Shown: in pieces, positions 1-9,893 of the stretch
Layout: every line of letters starts with the position of its first letter
How positions within the stretch are numbered: position 1 is the stretch's first letter
From: Dysgonamonadaceae bacterium
GTDB taxonomy: Bacteria > Bacteroidota > Bacteroidia > Bacteroidales > Azobacteroidaceae
Assembly (NCBI GenBank): GCA_031272085.1
Contig: JAISUN010000073.1
Span: forward strand, 1 to 62,372
Length of the DNA stretch: 62,372 nucleotides
Reading direction: 5' to 3'
Notes under the pieces: generated by a model
What the model was told of the DNA's origin: nothing
What the model saw: only the letters and a program-made list of their open reading frames with translations
The model's database searches: none
Made by a program: the position numbers and the translations under genes

Positions 1-728
1 TTTGCGATGCTGTCAGCCGTTGCCGTCGGGTTTACCGCCAATTTGTAGGGGTCGGCGTCTTTTCCGCTGCCCGAGCGGGTAAGCGTCGCGTTGGCAGCGT
101 CGGTTACTTCGTTGCCCACAATGGTGTCTTTCTTGACTGCGCTGAACAGGTCGGCGCTTAAATCTGCCGACGTTATTGTGCCGTCCAAAATTTTTGCAGA
201 AGTTACCGCATTGTCGGCAATTTTAACGGTTGTAACTCCGCCGTCGGCTATGCCGATGGTTTGCGTCATCCCCGACACCGATTTTTGCAGCCCTTCGTTG
301 GCTACGGTTGCCGTGTCGAGTGCGTGAATGGCGGAGCCGAGTATCGAGATGTTAGTGCCGGCTGAATAAGTCGTTCCTCCTCCGCCGCCGTCGGTGCCTT
401 TCAGCGATTGCCAAACCGAACCGTCGAAGTAGTAATAGCCTGCCGCTGTTACGTTGGCAGTTTTTGTCGTCGTCGGACTTGCCGCCGCCGTTACATAGAC
501 AATCGCGCCTGTCTGGTCTGTGCCGTACTTGCTGTCGTTGCCTTTGAGTTCATTGCCCGTCAGGACGGGCGCAATGATGCCGTCGGCTTTCGTGCCGCCC
601 TTGCGGACGTCGAGAGTCGCTTTCGGCTCGTCCATCGAACCGATTGTTACCTGCGCTTTCGCGCCTGTGGCTGCGCCCAAAACTGCGAGCGCGATTATTA
701 ATGTTGCCAAAAATATTGTTCTTTTCAT
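1..728 (-). CDS. Secreted tail-fibre-like repeat protein (3' end outside window)
   Basis: The reading frame is open from ATG at 728 to the window edge (242 complete codons), so the C-terminus is missing. Residues 1-26 form a signal peptide (MKRTIFLATLIIALAVLGAA, then TGAKAQ). The mature protein starts VTIGSMDEPKATLDV, the opening typical of Bacteroidota surface proteins with tail-fibre-like architecture. A glycine run follows near residue 110. Residues about 150-190 contain repeats of the type VTTVKIADNAVTSAKILDGT, seen in phage tail fibres and trimeric surface stalks. I infer an extracellular, possibly adhesive protein. It is the last gene in the window of the leftward set that faces the invertible segment. 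The family assignment is by pattern only. Confidence 0.72.
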   Translation of the reverse strand, partial: MKRTIFLATLIIALAVLGAATGAKAQVTIGSMDEPKATLDVRKGGTKADGIIAPVLTGNELKGNDSKYGTDQTGAIVYVTAAASPTTTKTANVTAAGYYYFDGSVWQSLKGTDGGGGGTTYSAGTNISILGSAIHALDTATVANEGLQKSVSGMTQTIGIADGGVTTVKIADNAVTSAKILDGTITSADLSADLFSAVKKDTIVGNEVTDAANATLTRSGSGKDADPYKLAVNPTATADSIA

Positions 729-901: not shown

Positions 902-1011
902 TTTTTGTCCTTCCTTTTTCTTAAAACCTTAAAGTCTTACAGAAACTTAATAAACGATATTTAATTTTTTGTACCTCCTTTTTCTTAAAGCCTCACAGCC
1001 TTAAAGTCTTT
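884..1011. repeat. 64-bp imperfect tandem duplication
   Basis: Copy A (884-947) and copy B (948-1011) share a period of 64 bp. Both contain TAATAAACGATRTTT, then a T-rich run, the complement of AAGGAGG or AAGGAAGG, and CTTAAA. Both end in the 8-nt repeat units described separately (920-942 and 984-1010). Copy A covers the start of the 35-residue ORF. Copy B overlaps the tail of the upstream gene. The duplication appears to have copied a translation start together with the short repeats. Confidence 0.75.
920..1010. repeat. Degenerate 8-nt repeat, two noncoding clusters
   Basis: Read on the minus strand, 984-1010 is AAGACTTT, AAGGCTGT, GAGGCTTT, AAG. Positions 920-942 read CTGT, AAGACTTT, AAGGTTTT, AAG. 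The period is 8 nt and the unit approximates AAGRCTKT. Related units occur at 1310-1336 and, with a 9-nt period, inside the recombinase gene at 3445-3498. Confidence 0.7.
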
Positions 1012-1552
1012 CCTCTCTCACTACGGTAGGTTCCCGCCCAAGGTGCCGCCCCCGGCAGCAAAACCGGACAGAAAAGGAATAAGTTATTTTCTCTACACTC
1101 CGTGCAAGCGCCAAAGAATAATGGTTTTGCTGCCAGTCTGCGGCTGCGTAAAATTTACGGATATGATGACAGGTACAGGCCTTCTCGTGGCTACGAAGCC
1201 ATGAATCGCGATTCCCGGCTCCCGAAGCCGGTTTCACTGATAACAGGCAGCCGGCCGGCAACTCGTTTCCGGAAAATGCTTTCACAATCCGCACTTTCCT
1301 GTCCCCGCTCTTAAAGCCTTTAAGCCTTACAGTCTTATTTTCGCTTTCGCCACCGCCGCCGCCCCACACAAGGCTTTCACCGTCCACGTTCATCCGAGTC
1401 CCGCTTTCGATAAAAACCCCGGCCCCATCAGACACGAAAAACCGGCCGGCAAAGGCCTCCTGATGCATCGTTGCTGCCGCAGAAGGAATCGCCGCCCATA
1501 TTGTTAAGAGCGCTATTATCCGCAAATTAACCATTAGTTTCCCGTATTTCAT
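1001..1552 (-). CDS. Small secreted protein, C-terminal half doubtful
   Basis: Starting at ATG 1552 the frame encodes 183 residues. Residues 1-27 are a signal peptide (hydrophobic LRIIALLTIWAAIPSAAA). Residues 28-65 (FFVSDGAGVFIESGTRMNVD and a five-glycine run) look like a beta-rich surface domain. From about residue 72 the 8-nt repeat at 1310-1336 is read as KTVRLKGFKSG. The remainder is rich in Cys, His and Arg and unlike a folded secreted domain, so the gene may be frameshifted or truncated by repeat insertion. It is the first leftward gene after the left inverted repeat, 19 bp away, and its promoter in this orientation is not evident. I do not recognise a family. Confidence 0.45.
   Translation of the reverse strand: MKYGKLMVNLRIIALLTIWAAIPSAAATMHQEAFAGRFFVSDGAGVFIESGTRMNVDGESLVWGGGGGESENKTVRLKGFKSGDRKVRIVKAFSGNELPAGCLLSVKPASGAGNRDSWLRSHEKACTCHHIRKFYAAADWQQNHYSLALARSVEKITYSFSVRFCCRGRHLGREPTVVREERL
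1310..1336. repeat. Degenerate 8-nt repeat inside a coding region
   Basis: On the minus strand it reads AAGACTGT, AAGGCTTA, AAGGCTTT, AAG: three units with an 8-nt period plus a partial unit. It lies in the 1001-1552 frame, where it is translated as KTVRLKGFK. The encoded protein loses its secreted-domain character just downstream. Confidence 0.7.
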
Positions 1553-1571: not shown

Positions 1572-1603
1572 TGTCACTATATAAGTGACAAAACAGAGGA
1601 TAA
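1572..1603 (+). repeat. Left 32-bp inverted repeat (IR-L)
   Basis: These 32 bases are the exact reverse complement of 2747-2778. The match stops at both ends (1571 and 1604 do not pair with 2779 and 2746). The outer 19 bp (1572-1590) form a core of 7-bp arms, TGTCACT and AGTGACA, around the 5-bp spacer ATATA. This is the layout of a tyrosine-recombinase crossover site. The arm lies 19 bp upstream of the ATG of the leftward secreted-protein gene. Confidence 0.93.
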
Positions 1604-1662
1604 TTTTTGTTTTTTACACTGTAATAAGACTTGTGTGTATAGGGCATTTTTGCCGCTGAAAA

Positions 1663-1678
1663 GTTATTTTTCAATCAC
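1663..1678 (-). repeat. Left copy of a 16-bp inverted element inside the segment
   Basis: On the minus strand this reads GTGATTGAAAAATAAC. It matches GTGATTGAAAAGTAAC on the plus strand at 2721-2736 in 15 of 16 positions. The copies face each other within the invertible segment, 59 bp and 10 bp from their nearest arms. It could be a second protein-binding site or a relic of an older rearrangement. Confidence 0.6.
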
Positions 1679-1749
1679 TCAAAACCTTTCGAATCTTAAA
1701 TCAGGATTTGAAAGGGAAGATTTTTTATTAATTTTTTAAAATAACTGCG

Positions 1750-2631
1750 ATGACGATGAAACGATATTCTTTATGCAATGAATGTTTCTCGACCTGTTCA
1801 AACTGTTTGGATACGCCGGAGGATTATTTTGAGTTTGTTGAAACCCGCCGAAACAGCCATACAAGGCTGCATCCGAAAGGCGTTGCTCTCGCCTGCCTGA
1901 TAAAAGGCGAGATTGATATTTCTTTCGAGGACAGCGGAATACGAAGAATTACGGCAAACAGCCTTTTCGTAATTCATCACGGCAATTTTTCTTACCGCTC
2001 AATCGAGGACAGCGGCCTGCTGTGTTTTTACCTGAAAAAAGAAATGGAATTCTGCGGTGAGATGCGAAAAAAAATCATCGAAAAACCGCAAAAAATTGAC
2101 AGAAACGAAACTGTCGTGCTTGAAATGAACGGTTTAGTCCGCGATGCAATATCAAGGTTTTTAACAGCAACCGCCGAAGGTATTCGATGCAAAATTTACG
2201 TCAATGCCTTTGTTACTCAACTGATTACATCGTTGCCAATGTTTGTTGCAAGCGAACAGTTGCAACTGTTTTACGCCCATCTCTGCTGCTCCGATTCTGC
2301 TCGAATAATTTTTGACAGCAATTTCCGCGCAAAAGTCCTCGAATTCCGCAATAAAGTATTTACAATAAAAGAATTTGCCGGCCTTATGAATATGAACAGG
2401 GAAACTTTCCGCAGCAATTTTGTCCGAATATTCGGCATCTCGCCAAAAACTTGGATTCTTTACGAACGGAAACGCCTTATTTACCGCGAATTGACGGAAG
2501 GAAACAAAAATGTCCTCGAAATCGCCGAACTTGCAGGTTTTGCCTCGGAAAAGCAGGTGTTCAAGTTCTCTAAAAATATTTTTGGGGAAACTGCATTTAA
2601 AATCAGATTTGGCAAAAAAGACGGAAAATAA
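1750..2631 (+). CDS. AraC-family transcriptional regulator in the invertible segment
   Basis: The 293-residue protein has an unconserved N-terminal region (1-190) with a cupin-like beta stretch (GVALACLIKGEIDISFED) and several cysteines near the start (CNECFSTCSNC). The C-terminal 95 residues are a two-helix-turn-helix AraC domain: FTIKEFAGLMNMNRETFRSN, then RIFGISPKTWI and ITAEL-like NVLEIAELAGFASEKQVFKF. ATG 1750 opens the frame; an internal ATG two codons later is equally possible. No clear promoter is visible upstream. The gene lies wholly between the inverted repeats, so it flips with its segment. I infer that it activates the promoter at 2709 through the direct repeats at 2651-2687. Confidence 0.88.
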   Translation: MTMKRYSLCNECFSTCSNCLDTPEDYFEFVETRRNSHTRLHPKGVALACLIKGEIDISFEDSGIRRITANSLFVIHHGNFSYRSIEDSGLLCFYLKKEMEFCGEMRKKIIEKPQKIDRNETVVLEMNGLVRDAISRFLTATAEGIRCKIYVNAFVTQLITSLPMFVASEQLQLFYAHLCCSDSARIIFDSNFRAKVLEFRNKVFTIKEFAGLMNMNRETFRSNFVRIFGISPKTWILYERKRLIYRELTEGNKNVLEIAELAGFASEKQVFKFSKNIFGETAFKIRFGKKDGK

Positions 2632-2650
2632 ACCGCCGGAATCATATTTA

Positions 2651-2687
2651 TTTGCAAATTGACACTTTATTTTTGCATTTTGACACT
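2651..2687 (+). promoter_or_regulatory. Candidate AraC operator: 16-bp direct repeats, 21-bp period
   Basis: TTTGCAAATTGACACT (2651-2666) and TTTGCATTTTGACACT (2672-2687) match in 14 of 16 positions and start 21 bp apart, two helical turns. AraC-type activators classically bind such direct repeats just upstream of, or overlapping, the promoter. The downstream copy overlaps the -33 region of the promoter whose -7 element is at 2709-2716. The neighbouring AraC gene ends 20 bp upstream, which makes it the obvious binder. Confidence 0.6.
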
Positions 2688-2708
2688 GACAGAGCGATAA
2701 TTCTCATT

Positions 2709-2716
2709 TACCTTTG
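2709..2716 (+). promoter_or_regulatory. Outward-facing promoter near the right arm (-7 TACCTTTG)
   Basis: TACCTTTG matches the Bacteroidota -7 consensus TAnnTTTG exactly and is followed by TGCCG. There is no TTTG at the usual 19-21 bp upstream; the nearest (2679-2682) is 26 bp away and lies in the putative operator, as expected for an activator-dependent promoter. It currently points to the right arm and the 3' end of the recombinase gene. After inversion it would drive the leftward surface genes. Confidence 0.6.
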
Positions 2717-2720
2717 TGCC

Positions 2721-2736
2721 GTGATTGAAAAGTAAC
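2721..2736 (+). repeat. Right copy of the 16-bp inverted element
   Basis: GTGATTGAAAAGTAAC is the partner of the minus-strand element at 1663-1678. It overlaps the expected transcription start of the promoter at 2709-2716. Confidence 0.6.
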
Positions 2737-2746
2737 AATTGTGGTT

Positions 2747-2778
2747 TTATCCTCTGTTTTGTCACTTATATAGTGACA
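2747..2778 (-). repeat. Right 32-bp inverted repeat (IR-R)
   Basis: This is the exact reverse complement of 1572-1603 over all 32 bases. Its palindromic core is at 2760-2778. It lies 60 bp from the stop codon of the recombinase gene and 30 bp past the -7 element at 2709-2716. Confidence 0.93.
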
Positions 2779-2838
2779 AACGTTTTGTGCAAAGATACAG
2801 TTATTTTTTAAAATACGCAATATTTGACAAATATTTTA

Positions 2839-3876
2839 TCATTTTTTCAATTTTTCATTGTAAAATATATTGGAAATTGCGTAATTTGCCTGCGCTACTG
2901 CTCCCGAATTCATCATATCAAGGTAAATCTGCGTGGTTTTTTCGCTGCAATGGCCGAGCGATGCCGATATCGTGCTTACGGGAATATTATTATTGTAAGC
3001 CGCAGAAGCCCAGGAGTGCCGCGCAACGTGCGTCGATACCGGCTTTTCCAGTCCTGCCGTCCGGCAAACTGCCTTCAACCTACGGTTCTGGTTAGTAAGC
3101 GCAACAGTATATTTGCGGTACTCGTCCCTGCCATCCTTTACGTCCTTCACAAAAGGAAAAACGTAAGGCGAGTCGTGCGTTTCAGCGGCGAAACAGTCCA
3201 TAATCCGGCGCATCGGCTCGGTCAGGAAGACAATGACCTCTTTCCCTGTCTTCCGCCGTCGGTAAACGAGGGCGGCATCGCCGACGACTGCCGTCTTTTT
3301 CAGCAAAACCGCGTCGGCAAAGGGCATCCCCTGGGCAAAAAAGCAGAAAAGGAACAGCAGCAGGGCGTTTTTTTCTTCGCGGTTTTCAAAACCGGTTTTA
3401 CTTTTTTTCTTGTCTTTGCAGTTCCTATTATCATTAACGACCTTCTTGTCCTTACAGTCCTTACAAACTTTCCCGTTTTTAAAGTCTTTAAGTTCTTCCC
3501 CAACAGCCTCCACCATCTTATGGATTTCCACCTCTTCCAAAGCCCGCTTGGCTGTCTTGGCAACGCCGGTGAAAACCCCGCTGAAAGGGTTTACAGTGCT
3601 GTCGGCAACAAAAACGCCGGCTTTCGCGCCCTTGTTGTAGATTGCGCGGATATTGCGCACATAAAACGAGGTTGTGTTTAGCGCAAGGCAGCCCGCCTGC
3701 ATCCAGAGTTCAAAGCCTTTCATCGCATCGTAGCAGATGTCGCCGAAATCGGCTTCGCGGCCAAGGAATGTGCTTAATTTGTTGAATGCCGACTGGTAGG
3801 CGCGGGCTGTCCGGTAGCGGCCTGCGGCGGTCAGTTCTTGAATTTGGGTTTCCGTAAATGTTTTTAAGTTTTCCAT
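2839..3876 (-). CDS. Tyrosine site-specific recombinase (putative invertase)
   Basis: The 345-residue protein has a SAM-like core-binding domain (5-100, with TARAYQSAFNKLSTF) and a catalytic domain (110-330). Visible catalytic residues are K209 (RRRKTGKE), H283-x-x-R286 (THVARHSW), H309 (SLGHCSEKTTQ) and Y318 (QIYL). At the usual first arginine the sequence is FFAQGMPF, giving Q182. Residues about 130-165 are a Lys/Asp-rich low-complexity insert encoded by 9-nt repeats. The family includes Bacteroides invertases that flip promoters. Its position beside perfect inverted repeats makes it the likely enzyme for that segment. A -7-like TAAATTTG (3917-3924, minus) lies 41 bp upstream. Confidence 0.87.
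   Translation of the reverse strand: MENLKTFTETQIQELTAAGRYRTARAYQSAFNKLSTFLGREADFGDICYDAMKGFELWMQAGCLALNTTSFYVRNIRAIYNKGAKAGVFVADSTVNPFSGVFTGVAKTAKRALEEVEIHKMVEAVGEELKDFKNGKVCKDCKDKKVVNDNRNCKDKKKSKTGFENREEKNALLLFLFCFFAQGMPFADAVLLKKTAVVGDAALVYRRRKTGKEVIVFLTEPMRRIMDCFAAETHDSPYVFPFVKDVKDGRDEYRKYTVALTNQNRRLKAVCRTAGLEKPVSTHVARHSWASAAYNNNIPVSTISASLGHCSEKTTQIYLDMMNSGAVAQANYAISNIFYNEKLKK
3445..3498. repeat. 9-nt repeat cluster inside the recombinase gene
   Basis: Plus-strand units CTTGTCCTT, ACAGTCCTT, ACAAACTTT (3445-3471) and AAAGTCTTT, AAGTTCTTC (3481-3498) are variants of the 8-nt unit found at 920-1336, here with a 9-nt period that keeps the reading frame. They encode the repeated KDC/KDK and KDF residues of the Lys/Asp-rich insert between the two recombinase domains. 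Confidence 0.65.
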
Positions 3877-8114: not shown

Positions 8115-9893
8115 TTATTTACCTATATACCGCCCCAAGTGCGGAGGTTGATTGTAAGCCACGTTTTGAACTGCTATTCCAAGGCGGTAAATGTGGTCGC
8201 TCATCAGCGTAACCATACGGATTTCGGAGGGGATGACGGTCGTAAAAATCATCAGTTCGTCGGGATTTTCGCGGTTGTAATAAATCGCTTCTTCGCGCCA
8301 GTCGCCAAACAGGTCGGCGCTCAAACAGGGATTGTTTTTCGTGCCGTTGATTGCCGATGCTCCGAAATCCCGGAAATCGACCAACAAATCGGTCCCGTCG
8401 CCGTTCCATTTTGTTATTTTTGTGCCGTCCAAAAGTTCATCCTGAACATCGCCGTCCCAATAAATCCTGAAATTTGTGGAAGGTTTTCGGGTAGAAATCA
8501 CTTCGCCGCGGATGTTGTAAACGCTGTCGGAAGCCGCGCTCCAAAACTCGAAACCGCGGTGGCGCGGATCAATGTCGGCGGCAAGACCGCGGCCTACGTC
8601 GATAGTCGTAGGCCGGCCGAAAAGCAGTTGGCCGGTGCGGGCGTCGCGAAGTTCCACTCCCGCCGGACTTGGGCGGTTCTCGTGAACGTCAAAAAATTCC
8701 AATCCCGGACGGTCGGGGTCGAGGTCGGAAAGATGATGTGCGTCGCCGTGTCCAAGCCCTGTTGAATACAGCAAACGGCCGTTGTCGTCGATAGCCGCTC
8801 CGCCGTAAATTATCTCGTCGCGTCCGTCGCCATCCACGTCGGCTGCCGCGATGCTGTGATTTCCCTGTCCGTAAGCGGTTTTCAGTTTATCGCGGCTGTC
8901 GCCTGTGTCGTAAACCCAGCGTTTTTTCAGTTTTCCTTTTTTGAAGTCCCAGGCAGCAATGACGGCGCGGGTGTAGTATCCGCGGCACATCACGAGCGAG
9001 GGATGTTTGCCGTCGAGATAGGCGATGCAGGCAAGGTATCGCTCCGAGCGGTTGCCTCTGTCGTCGCCCCAGACGGTTTTCGGATTTTCGCCCCGCGGAG
9101 GTTCGTATGGAACGGTTGAGATTTCCGCGCCGGTCAATCCGTTGAAAACTGTCAGATATTCAGGGCCTTGCAGGATATGGCCGTTTTCGTCGCGGTAATC
9201 GGCCTTGGGGTCGTCGTTTCCGAGAATTACCGCTTTGCCCTGTCCGTCGATGGTTCCGGGAGCGGTTTTGCAGGCAATTTCTGCCCGTCCGTCGCCGTCG
9301 AGGTCGTAAACCATAAACTGCGTGTAATGCGCTCCGGCACGGATATTGCAGCCGAGGTCGATTCGCCAGAGGCGGGTTCCGTCAAGTTTATATGCGTCGA
9401 GGAAAACATTGTCGGTCAATCCGTTATGCGAATTATCGCGGGCGCGGGCATTCCACTTCACGACAATTTCGTATTCGCCGTCGCCATCCAAATCGCCGAC
9501 GCTGCAATCGTTAGGCAGATATTGAAACATTCCCTGCGCTTCGGGACGCTGCATTTTTATCGTCAAATACGGCTTAATCCATGGTTTTACGGGCTTTGAA
9601 GCCGTCTTATCCGCTTTCGAAGCGGTTTTTACCAAATAAGTATCTTCTGCCGAAGCGAGGCTGTCGAGGAAGCATGTTGCGCCTGTAAGCGGATGATTAT
9701 TAAGCAATACGCCGTTTTTAAAGATATTGAAAGCCAAATCAGGCGCTTCGTTGCCGAGAAGCCGCCATGACAGGAAAACTCCGTTTTCGGTATTGACTGC
9801 GACAAGGCCGCGGTCAAGTTTTTCGGCTTGTGTTGCCGAATTTAATAAAACGCTGTGTGTAAGCGCAATAAGAAGCAAGAATATGTTTTTCAT
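8115..9893 (-). CDS. Rhamnogalacturonan lyase, PL11 family
   Basis: The 592-residue protein has a signal peptide (MKNIFLLLIALTHSVLLNSA), then an N-terminal beta module (AEKLDRGLVAVNTENGVFLS) and the PL11 eight-bladed propeller. The family's calcium-binding acidic loops are clear: DLDGDGEYEIVVKWN, DLDGDGRAEIACKTAPGTID, DVDGDGRDEIIYGG and GHGDAHHLSDLDPDRPGLEF. Family members cleave the rhamnose-galacturonate backbone of rhamnogalacturonan I by beta-elimination. The signal peptide places it in the periplasm or outside. It is not beside the SusC/SusD locus, but fits with kduI in this window as part of pectin use. Confidence 0.9.
   Translation of the reverse strand: MKNIFLLLIALTHSVLLNSATQAEKLDRGLVAVNTENGVFLSWRLLGNEAPDLAFNIFKNGVLLNNHPLTGATCFLDSLASAEDTYLVKTASKADKTASKPVKPWIKPYLTIKMQRPEAQGMFQYLPNDCSVGDLDGDGEYEIVVKWNARARDNSHNGLTDNVFLDAYKLDGTRLWRIDLGCNIRAGAHYTQFMVYDLDGDGRAEIACKTAPGTIDGQGKAVILGNDDPKADYRDENGHILQGPEYLTVFNGLTGAEISTVPYEPPRGENPKTVWGDDRGNRSERYLACIAYLDGKHPSLVMCRGYYTRAVIAAWDFKKGKLKKRWVYDTGDSRDKLKTAYGQGNHSIAAADVDGDGRDEIIYGGAAIDDNGRLLYSTGLGHGDAHHLSDLDPDRPGLEFFDVHENRPSPAGVELRDARTGQLLFGRPTTIDVGRGLAADIDPRHRGFEFWSAASDSVYNIRGEVISTRKPSTNFRIYWDGDVQDELLDGTKITKWNGDGTDLLVDFRDFGASAINGTKNNPCLSADLFGDWREEAIYYNRENPDELMIFTTVIPSEIRMVTLMSDHIYRLGIAVQNVAYNQPPHLGRYIGK

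Follow-up and report, generated by a model that had tools for sequence, protein, structure and literature searches.

Invertible promoters are usually regarded as coin flips with a single layer of control. In the Hin flagellar switch the invertible segment carries a complete gene together with an outward-facing promoter, the gene being that of the serine recombinase itself, while in the fim switch of E. coli a tyrosine recombinase inverts the promoter of a surface structure on a segment that holds no gene. The regulator genes of the CmrRST system of Clostridioides difficile lie downstream of their switch and not on the inverted segment, and in araI direct repeats are found 21 bp apart. Hin of Salmonella, fim and the phase variation of the CmrRST regulators are all mentioned in the accessible parts of the literature (PMC11868660, PMC6765310 and PMC8844915, respectively). 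The closest described systems are the invertible promoters of Bacteroides fragilis, which are flipped by a neighbouring tyrosine recombinase, Tsr19/BF2766 (PMC4747536, PMC12632263).

As the accessible parts of these two papers present them, the B. fragilis promoters share with the window (the whole stretch of 62,372 nucleotides analysed here, from a Dysgonamonadaceae bacterium) a recombinase beside a segment bracketed by inverted repeats, a -7 box of the form TAnnTTTG and targets that are surface products, and we count as a further likeness that the B. fragilis recombinase also acts on a distant segment (PMC4747536, PMC12632263). However, the B. fragilis segments are described as promoters and those parts of the papers name no activator gene, whereas the window segment of 1.2 kb carries a whole activator gene with a putative operator and is accompanied by a second promoter-like sequence that lies outside it. 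Its features are as follows.

1..728, minus strand: beginning of a gene for a surface protein of the MKRTIFL..QVTIG type, truncated by the contig end (judged by eye)
1001..1552, minus strand: target-side open reading frame, 183 aa, with a signal-peptide-like start (judged by eye)
1572..1603, plus strand: left inverted repeat, target side; core at 1572-1590, TGTCACT-ATATA-AGTGACA
1604..2746, no strand: segment that probably inverts; the assembled orientation is taken as OFF
1685..1715, plus strand: hairpin in the araC leader with a T-rich tract 3' of it, terminator- or attenuator-like
1750..2631, plus strand: gene for an AraC-family regulator of 293 aa, with an N-terminal beta barrel and HTH_18
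2651..2685, plus strand: putative AraC operator, a 14-nt unit in two direct copies at a 21-bp spacing (2651-2664 and 2672-2685)
2709..2716, plus strand: putative promoter P2, -7 box TACCTTTG without a TTG at the -33 spacing; as assembled, directed away from the target
2747..2778, minus strand: right inverted repeat, recombinase side; core at 2760-2778
2790..2820, minus strand: putative promoter P1, promoter-like TTG-N20-TATCTTTG, outside the inverted repeat and directed into the segment
2839..3876, minus strand: tyrosine recombinase gene, 345 aa

Like the Hin segment, this one bears a complete gene and an outward promoter, but the gene is that of an AraC activator and the recombinase lies outside. 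Inversion by a tyrosine recombinase is shared with fim, whose segment has no gene where this one has araC, and phase-variable regulators are shared with CmrRST, in which they lie downstream of the switch and not, as here, on the inverted segment. The regulator pairs a beta barrel with helix-turn-helix units as AraC-family activators do, but its gene lies between inverted repeats, and the direct repeats beside P2 have the 21-bp spacing of araI.

The initial annotation had described exact 32-bp reverse-complement repeats, each with a recombinase-like core, framing a complete AraC-family gene next to a tyrosine recombinase gene that ends 60 bp past the right repeat, with neither a transposase inside nor a duplication outside, and every element of this description was borne out. 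The arms at 1569-1603 and 2747-2781 are 35 nt long and 97% complementary, and are perfect over the 32 bp at 1572-1603 and 2747-2778; the next longest exact-match inverted pair that the window contains, at a separation of 60-4000 bp, has arms of 14 bp. Both arms contain the core TGTCACT-N5-AGTGACA, with 7-bp arms and a 5-bp spacer, which matches the window exactly at two places only and, at up to three mismatches, at five, against 0.94 expected and with none of 100 shuffles reaching five. The terminal repeats and the recombinase of the right class 60 bp away are those of an inverton; no transposase is visible inside the segment, as a transposon or insertion sequence would have, and no target-site duplication is visible by eye outside it. 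The 21-bp-spaced repeats, the promoter-like sequence outside the right repeat and seven more elements in the genome go beyond that earlier description.

We propose that 1604-2746 is an invertible activator cassette acting as a double-lock switch for a surface gene, and consider this likely. The neighbouring recombinase probably flips the segment, and the AraC protein probably activates P2 on the same 1.2-kb segment. Promoter function, AraC binding and activation, and the identity of the ON orientation are all predicted from sequence. According to the model, the adjoining tyrosine recombinase would invert 1604-2746 by strand exchange within the 5-bp spacers of the two inverted repeats. The ON state would be the reverse of the assembled one, so that recombinase, P1, inverted repeat, araC, P2, inverted repeat and target follow one another in a single reading direction; araC would then be transcribed from the fixed P1 outside the repeat, and its product, bound to the 21-bp-spaced direct repeats beside P2, would cause P2 to drive the surface gene past the other repeat. 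In the OFF state, as assembled, araC would be severed from P1 and P2 would be aimed away from the target. As OFF both separates araC from P1 and reverses P2, the switch would be locked twice. It should be noted, as a point against this circuit, that P1 would in the OFF state read antisense across the cassette to the target, and no terminator that would stop it was identified there.

The araC product matches HTH_18 with 39.5 bits (cut-off 33.6) and HTH_AraC with 23.7 bits, which is under the cut-off of 26.6. A structure model built from 12 sequences (mean pLDDT 81.7, pTM 0.59) has an N-terminal beta barrel plus the helices of two helix-turn-helix units, and the C-terminal helix-turn-helix pair that defines the AraC/XylS family is present by the HTH_18 match above cut-off and by the model. 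The solved folds ranked highest for it are ToxT, CsvR and Rns, with rmsd 17-19 across both domains and 11-14% identity to those chains, while the N-terminal domain alone resembles ExsA (TM-score by target 0.70). The recombinase matches Phage_integrase with 50.9 bits and SAM_5 with 48.5, and shows the motifs RRRKTGK at 206, HVARHSW at 283, LGH at 307 and IYL at 317. Box II H-x-x-R, the next H and the nucleophile Y, which we take to be the catalytic residues, are invariant among the five aligned recombinases of this genome (5/5). The box I region reads FAQGMPFADA, without the canonical arginine; in IntDOT-type enzymes of Bacteroides this arginine is likewise replaced.

Further features of the window were noted in passing. 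The last third of the 183-aa product of 1001-1552, which looks secreted and has no Pfam match, looks unlike a normal protein, and similar reading frames adjoin the C30 and C27 cassettes described below. Dispersed imperfect repeats of the type CTTAAAGTCTTACAG lie at 879-1344 and about 3380-3490, between target genes, and the recombinases of the window element and of C30 contain a lysine- and cysteine-rich insert whose coding sequence resembles these repeats by eye. Positions 8115-9893 hold a gene for a rhamnogalacturonan lyase of family 11 (RGL11_C, 692.6 bits).

The genome from which the window comes (139 contigs, 2.6 Mb, 82% complete) contains the core, at no more than one mismatch, at 15 places: seven inverted pairs and a lone site at the start of C40. 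An eighth pair, C27, has a spacer of 6 nt and inverted repeats of 23 bp. Five of the eight elements, each about 1.2 kb, carry araC (the window element C57, and C30, C27, C33 and C119), and three are short, at 258-311 bp (C80, C81 and C48). A recombinase of the same family adjoins four of the five araC elements, C33 being the exception, and besides that of the window, open genes of this family lie at C30, C119, C48 and C27; C80 and C81 have none alongside. As assembled, the araC gene of C33 carries a frameshift (L047, 4541-5480). Over 181 bp C80 is 86% identical, and over 199 bp C81 is 76% identical, to the 3' end of the C33 cassette, the shared stretch covering the P2 region as well as the final portion of araC, whereas shuffled C80 yielded one 22-bp match at E 0.012; judged from these alignments, C80 and C81 are deletion derivatives of a C33-like araC cassette. 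C48 has no significant sequence in common with the araC cassettes. The genes on the far side of these elements have signal-peptide-like N-terminal starts (by eye), those at C33 and C80 giving weak Fib_succ_major/FISUMP matches under curated cut-offs, while C48 sits in front of a recombinase gene and not a surface gene. The C48 locus (L050, G000:C48, 3435-4947) is a short two-site element whose promoter box is aimed at that gene, so the recombinase may itself be phase-variable.

The first 119 bases of C119 (L048, 1-119) and of C40 (L049, 1-119) are identical, and the two contigs diverge at the inner edge of the inverted repeat. The length equals the k in the contig names of a related MAG (k119_), and the pair therefore looks like an assembly-graph fork at a recombination site or a duplicated target locus. 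A reading of this fork as the two orientations of one cassette was rejected: C40 runs to the end of a catalase-like gene (by eye) and not into a reversed cassette, which points to a duplicated locus or another rearrangement, and it is therefore not counted as evidence of inversion. The contigs C80 and C154 of a relative, G018, were also considered as a fork and rejected, their sequences being merely similar.

Cassettes of this kind were also found in other Bacteroidales. When named genomes were scanned using the recombinase alignment, 37 loci were obtained, three of them from G008, which is assigned to the genus of the window's genome. At 11 of the 37, a single reading frame of 276-300 aa next to the recombinase is bracketed by exact inverted repeats of 15-39 bp (exact repeats of at least 14 bp were searched, what lies between them was examined for the two longest pairs at each locus, and the 11 counted have at least 15 bp). 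All ten of the bracketed frames scanned against Pfam were AraC (10/10), and the eleventh, at L148, has AraC-type NCBIfam matches under curated cut-offs and is a near-identical partner of L147. Isolates among the carriers are Bacteroides xylanisolvens XB1A and three Dysgonomonas. Genes adjoining the cassettes include DUF3575 (L119, L136, L142, L147), Mfa2 (L145) and FISUMP-like genes, and no Pfam family was assigned to the neighbours tested at L133 (Dysgonomonas capnocytophagoides DSM 22835) and L139. Past the araC cassettes of L135 and L137, the first large gene resembles ribosomal protein L20 by eye and not a surface gene.

Searching from the AraC side in 295 genomes of the order, with at most 8 candidates per genome scored, we found inverted repeats (at least 12 bp, within 700 bp) around three of 29 matches examined (L173, L174 and C119 of the window's genome), these being 29 of the 39 matches listed, with the window's own excluded. 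In the genus of L148, with at most 16 candidates scored in each of 149 genomes, homologues of the L148 AraC reaching E 1e-60 or better are encoded at five or more places in at least four genomes, G054 itself among them; at four of five such places, L164 being the exception, the gene is bracketed by inverted repeats and adjoined by a recombinase. No relative was confirmed when genome contigs were scanned using the AraC alignment A1. The bracketed layout is thus found in a minority of this AraC group and recurs across several taxa, which by record titles comprise Dysgonomonas, Dysgonamonadaceae, Parabacteroides, Tannerellaceae, Alistipes, Proteiniphilum and Bacteroides. The initial annotation had called a segment with a whole AraC regulator plus operator and promoter uncommon. 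A segment with a whole araC gene is not unique in the order, where 22 were seen, five of them in this one genome. In the literature searched, no AraC gene on an invertible segment is described in the accessible parts of the papers (PMC11892184, PMC13114119, PMC12632263, PMC9409006, PMC4747536, PMC8375218, PMC5903667, PMC10939037, PMC10994844, PMC11868660, PMC11852207, PMC11300592 and PMC6765310), and an earlier description may exist.

The placing of promoter-like boxes was compared in 20 araC cassettes oriented alike: the five of the window's genome, one of G046, 11 of named genomes and three from two genomes of the genus of L148. The set contains the near-duplicates L147/L148 and L165/L166, of which L148 was dropped from the direct-repeat test, while L173 and L174 are outside both the box and the repeat counts. 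Within 100 bp outside the recombinase-side repeat, a TAnnTTTG box is directed into the cassette in 12/20 and lies on the reverse strand in 2/20; outside the target-side repeat, boxes are directed inward in 1/20 and outward in 3/20. Between the araC stop codon and the nearer repeat, a box lies in the sense of araC in 15/20 and antisense in 2/20. From these positions, a cassette whose araC points away from the recombinase would have P1, araC, P2 and target in one direction. At all five araC cassettes of the window's genome the P1 box stands 20-23 bp before the core. The strict consensus nevertheless counts against the circuit where it fails to find P1 (8/20) or P2 (5/20). A TTG 18-22 nt upstream of the box accompanies none of 15 P2 boxes and four of 12 P1 boxes.

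Near P2, a direct repeat with a period of 21 bp scores highest in seven of 19 cassettes, against a chance of 1/36 each, and six of the seven beat their shuffles at p <=0.033, L142 being the one that does not; in the other 12 cassettes the top period is a different one, which again counts against the circuit. The repeated unit differs among C57/C33, C30, C27, L119 and L125. The doubled operator of the window, TTTGCAAATTGACA-N7-TTTGCAAATTGACA, occurs at no more than three mismatches at four places in its genome, which are the P2 regions of C57, C33, C80 and C81, and the reversed control of this doubled operator gave no match there. In the araC leader, hairpins fold in all five cassettes of this genome, those of C57 and C119 being the most stable and having a T tract; a conserved terminator in the leader was considered and rejected, nothing of comparable strength being present in the other 15 cassettes, which also counts against the circuit.

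Related genes in fixed positions suggest that the collinear order is also the working order. Where a DUF3575 gene was found within reach of a non-bracketed araC, araC lies upstream of it and collinear with it (3/3), and fixed araC genes at C12 of the window's genome and at G008 C11 are placed in the same way before a surface gene. At the bracketed L173 and L174 of the AraC-side set, which do have a target-type match, araC and target are divergent. Against the circuit stand 23 of the 26 non-bracketed loci of that set, at which no target-type match was found, the count of three bracketed loci in the 29 examined there, and the closest fixed relative, at G008 C115, whose araC is not beside such a surface gene.

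These observations bear on a simpler reading, that P2 is an ordinary invertible promoter and araC a passenger, expressed regardless of orientation and regulating other genes. Short elements that lack araC do exist in this genome (C80, C81 and C48) and in relatives, so inversion of P2 alone may suffice at some loci. However, a TAnnTTTG box is found in the araC leader in 5/20 cassettes and, within the window's genome, in C33 but in none of the other four; the P1 box, constant at the araC cassettes of this genome, is missing at two of the three short ones, being present at C80 and absent at C81 and C48; and the doubled operator was found, at no more than three mismatches, in invertible elements of the genome only. 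The P1 box at C80, where araC is lacking, and its absence at C81 and C48 also count against the circuit. We therefore regard the passenger reading as unlikely and retain the activator cassette.

The orientation of the elements could instead mean that they flipped in the past and are now fixed in this lineage. The seven elements with a surface gene in front of them all point the same way, OFF by our assignment, C48 being the eighth. Of 22 araC cassettes, with L173 and L174 added to the 20 compared, 18 would be OFF and four ON (L133, L137, L145 and L147) by the same predicted labels, that of L173 being taken from its neighbouring target-type gene as its recombinase lay outside the flank covered. 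Such a bias leaves room for fixation, which is also favoured by the frameshifted araC of C33 and by C80 and C81, from which most of araC is gone and which lack an adjoining recombinase. A switch kept mostly OFF nevertheless has a precedent in IVp-I of B. fragilis, by the accessible parts of that paper (PMC4747536). Moreover, the repeats of C57 are perfect over 32 bp with its araC and recombinase genes both open, and the family recombinases at C30, C119, C48 and C27 are open too, and we judge a fossil state to be quite improbable.

Strand exchange requires matching spacers. With the spacer left free (N5) in the search pattern, the 5-nt spacer is the same within each of the seven two-site elements of the window's genome, with six values in total, one being common to C30 and C81 (permutation p 0.0004 for matching within pairs); outside the spacer, the first base of the left C48 core is A instead of G, and A replaces T immediately beside one C119 site. 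In the relatives G001, G006, G008 and G018 the spacers are likewise identical within seven of seven two-site elements. The core, at no more than one mismatch, matches in eight of 39 genomes, the window's own included, but single sites are not counted, as one or two matches to the reversed control pattern were obtained in 11 of these 39. Against inversion in this genome, which we predict, the window's own assembly shows a single orientation and no alternative junction of the C57 sites.

In relatives, inversion can be seen directly from alignments. The initial annotation had pointed to related genomes as the place to look for the opposite orientation, and homologous cassettes show it there: between L147 (Bacteroidales MAG SUG2176) and L148 (Bacteroides xylanisolvens XB1A) the 3.07 kb of left flank align collinearly as far as the inverted repeat at 98.7% identity, the cassette is 97.7% identical but inverted (alignment score 1079.5 reversed against 11 forward), and the right flank is 82% identical over 137 bp, with breakpoints at the 27-28 bp inverted repeats. 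The two loci do not align farther out, and L148 is masked from 6817 on. In a second pair, L135 and L137 from Alistipes MAGs, the flanks are collinear and the araC genes, 45% identical, stand in opposite orientations. For these relatives, the alignments indicate that homologous Bacteroidales cassettes invert. With matched spacers in all seven pairs of the window's genome and both orientations among homologous cassettes, the phase-variable switch that the initial annotation proposed remains the best reading.

Two other layouts were seen in G006, of the same genus. It has 21 core matches, many paired about 288 bp apart, and in the loci read (L100, L101, L103) a promoter-like box lies outside, with surface genes farther out. 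At L098 (G006:C9, 1663-6387), an araC gene and a recombinase gene are flanked by a pair of long, diverged inverted stretches, some 4 kb apart, which extend to two surface genes pointing away from each other.

The spacers and the L147/L148 inversion speak against the idea that the cores are operators for a regulator and not recombination sites. Each core is indeed a near-palindrome of 7-bp half sites, but an operator has no need of spacers that are the same at both sites of an element and mostly change from one element to the next, and together with the L147/L148 breakpoints at the inverted repeats this leads us to reject operators alone as highly improbable. That the inverted repeats are the ends of an insertion sequence or integrated cassette, as their terminal position, the adjoining recombinase and the multiple copies per genome might suggest, is rejected as almost certainly wrong, since there is no transposase inside and no visible target duplication, the recombinase lies outside, the order of recombinase, cassette and target recurs where cassettes have little sequence in common, and L147 and L148 are inverted in place.

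The restriction of the doubled operator to four invertible elements has a further consequence for the activator cassette, suggesting, by sequence resemblance, control in trans of elements that lack a working araC. Of the four bearers, C57 alone has an intact araC, so its regulator may act on C33, C80 and C81; at C119, C30 and C27, where araC is intact, the repeats are of other kinds or more diverged than the C57 type. That invertible activator cassettes form a switch class of their own in the Bacteroidales, networked in this genome through a trans-acting window AraC, we consider as likely as not. If the class is real, one flip would both link an activator gene to a fixed promoter and turn the promoter that it serves towards a surface gene, and the self-carried activator would add to the coin flip a second layer, which could be gated by whatever AraC senses. 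The double lock could make the switch all-or-none, and a cassette could couple several surface genes. If the network is true, the surface genes at C33, C80 and C81 would each need two elements ON, their own and, as the window AraC would act on them in trans, another cassette as well.
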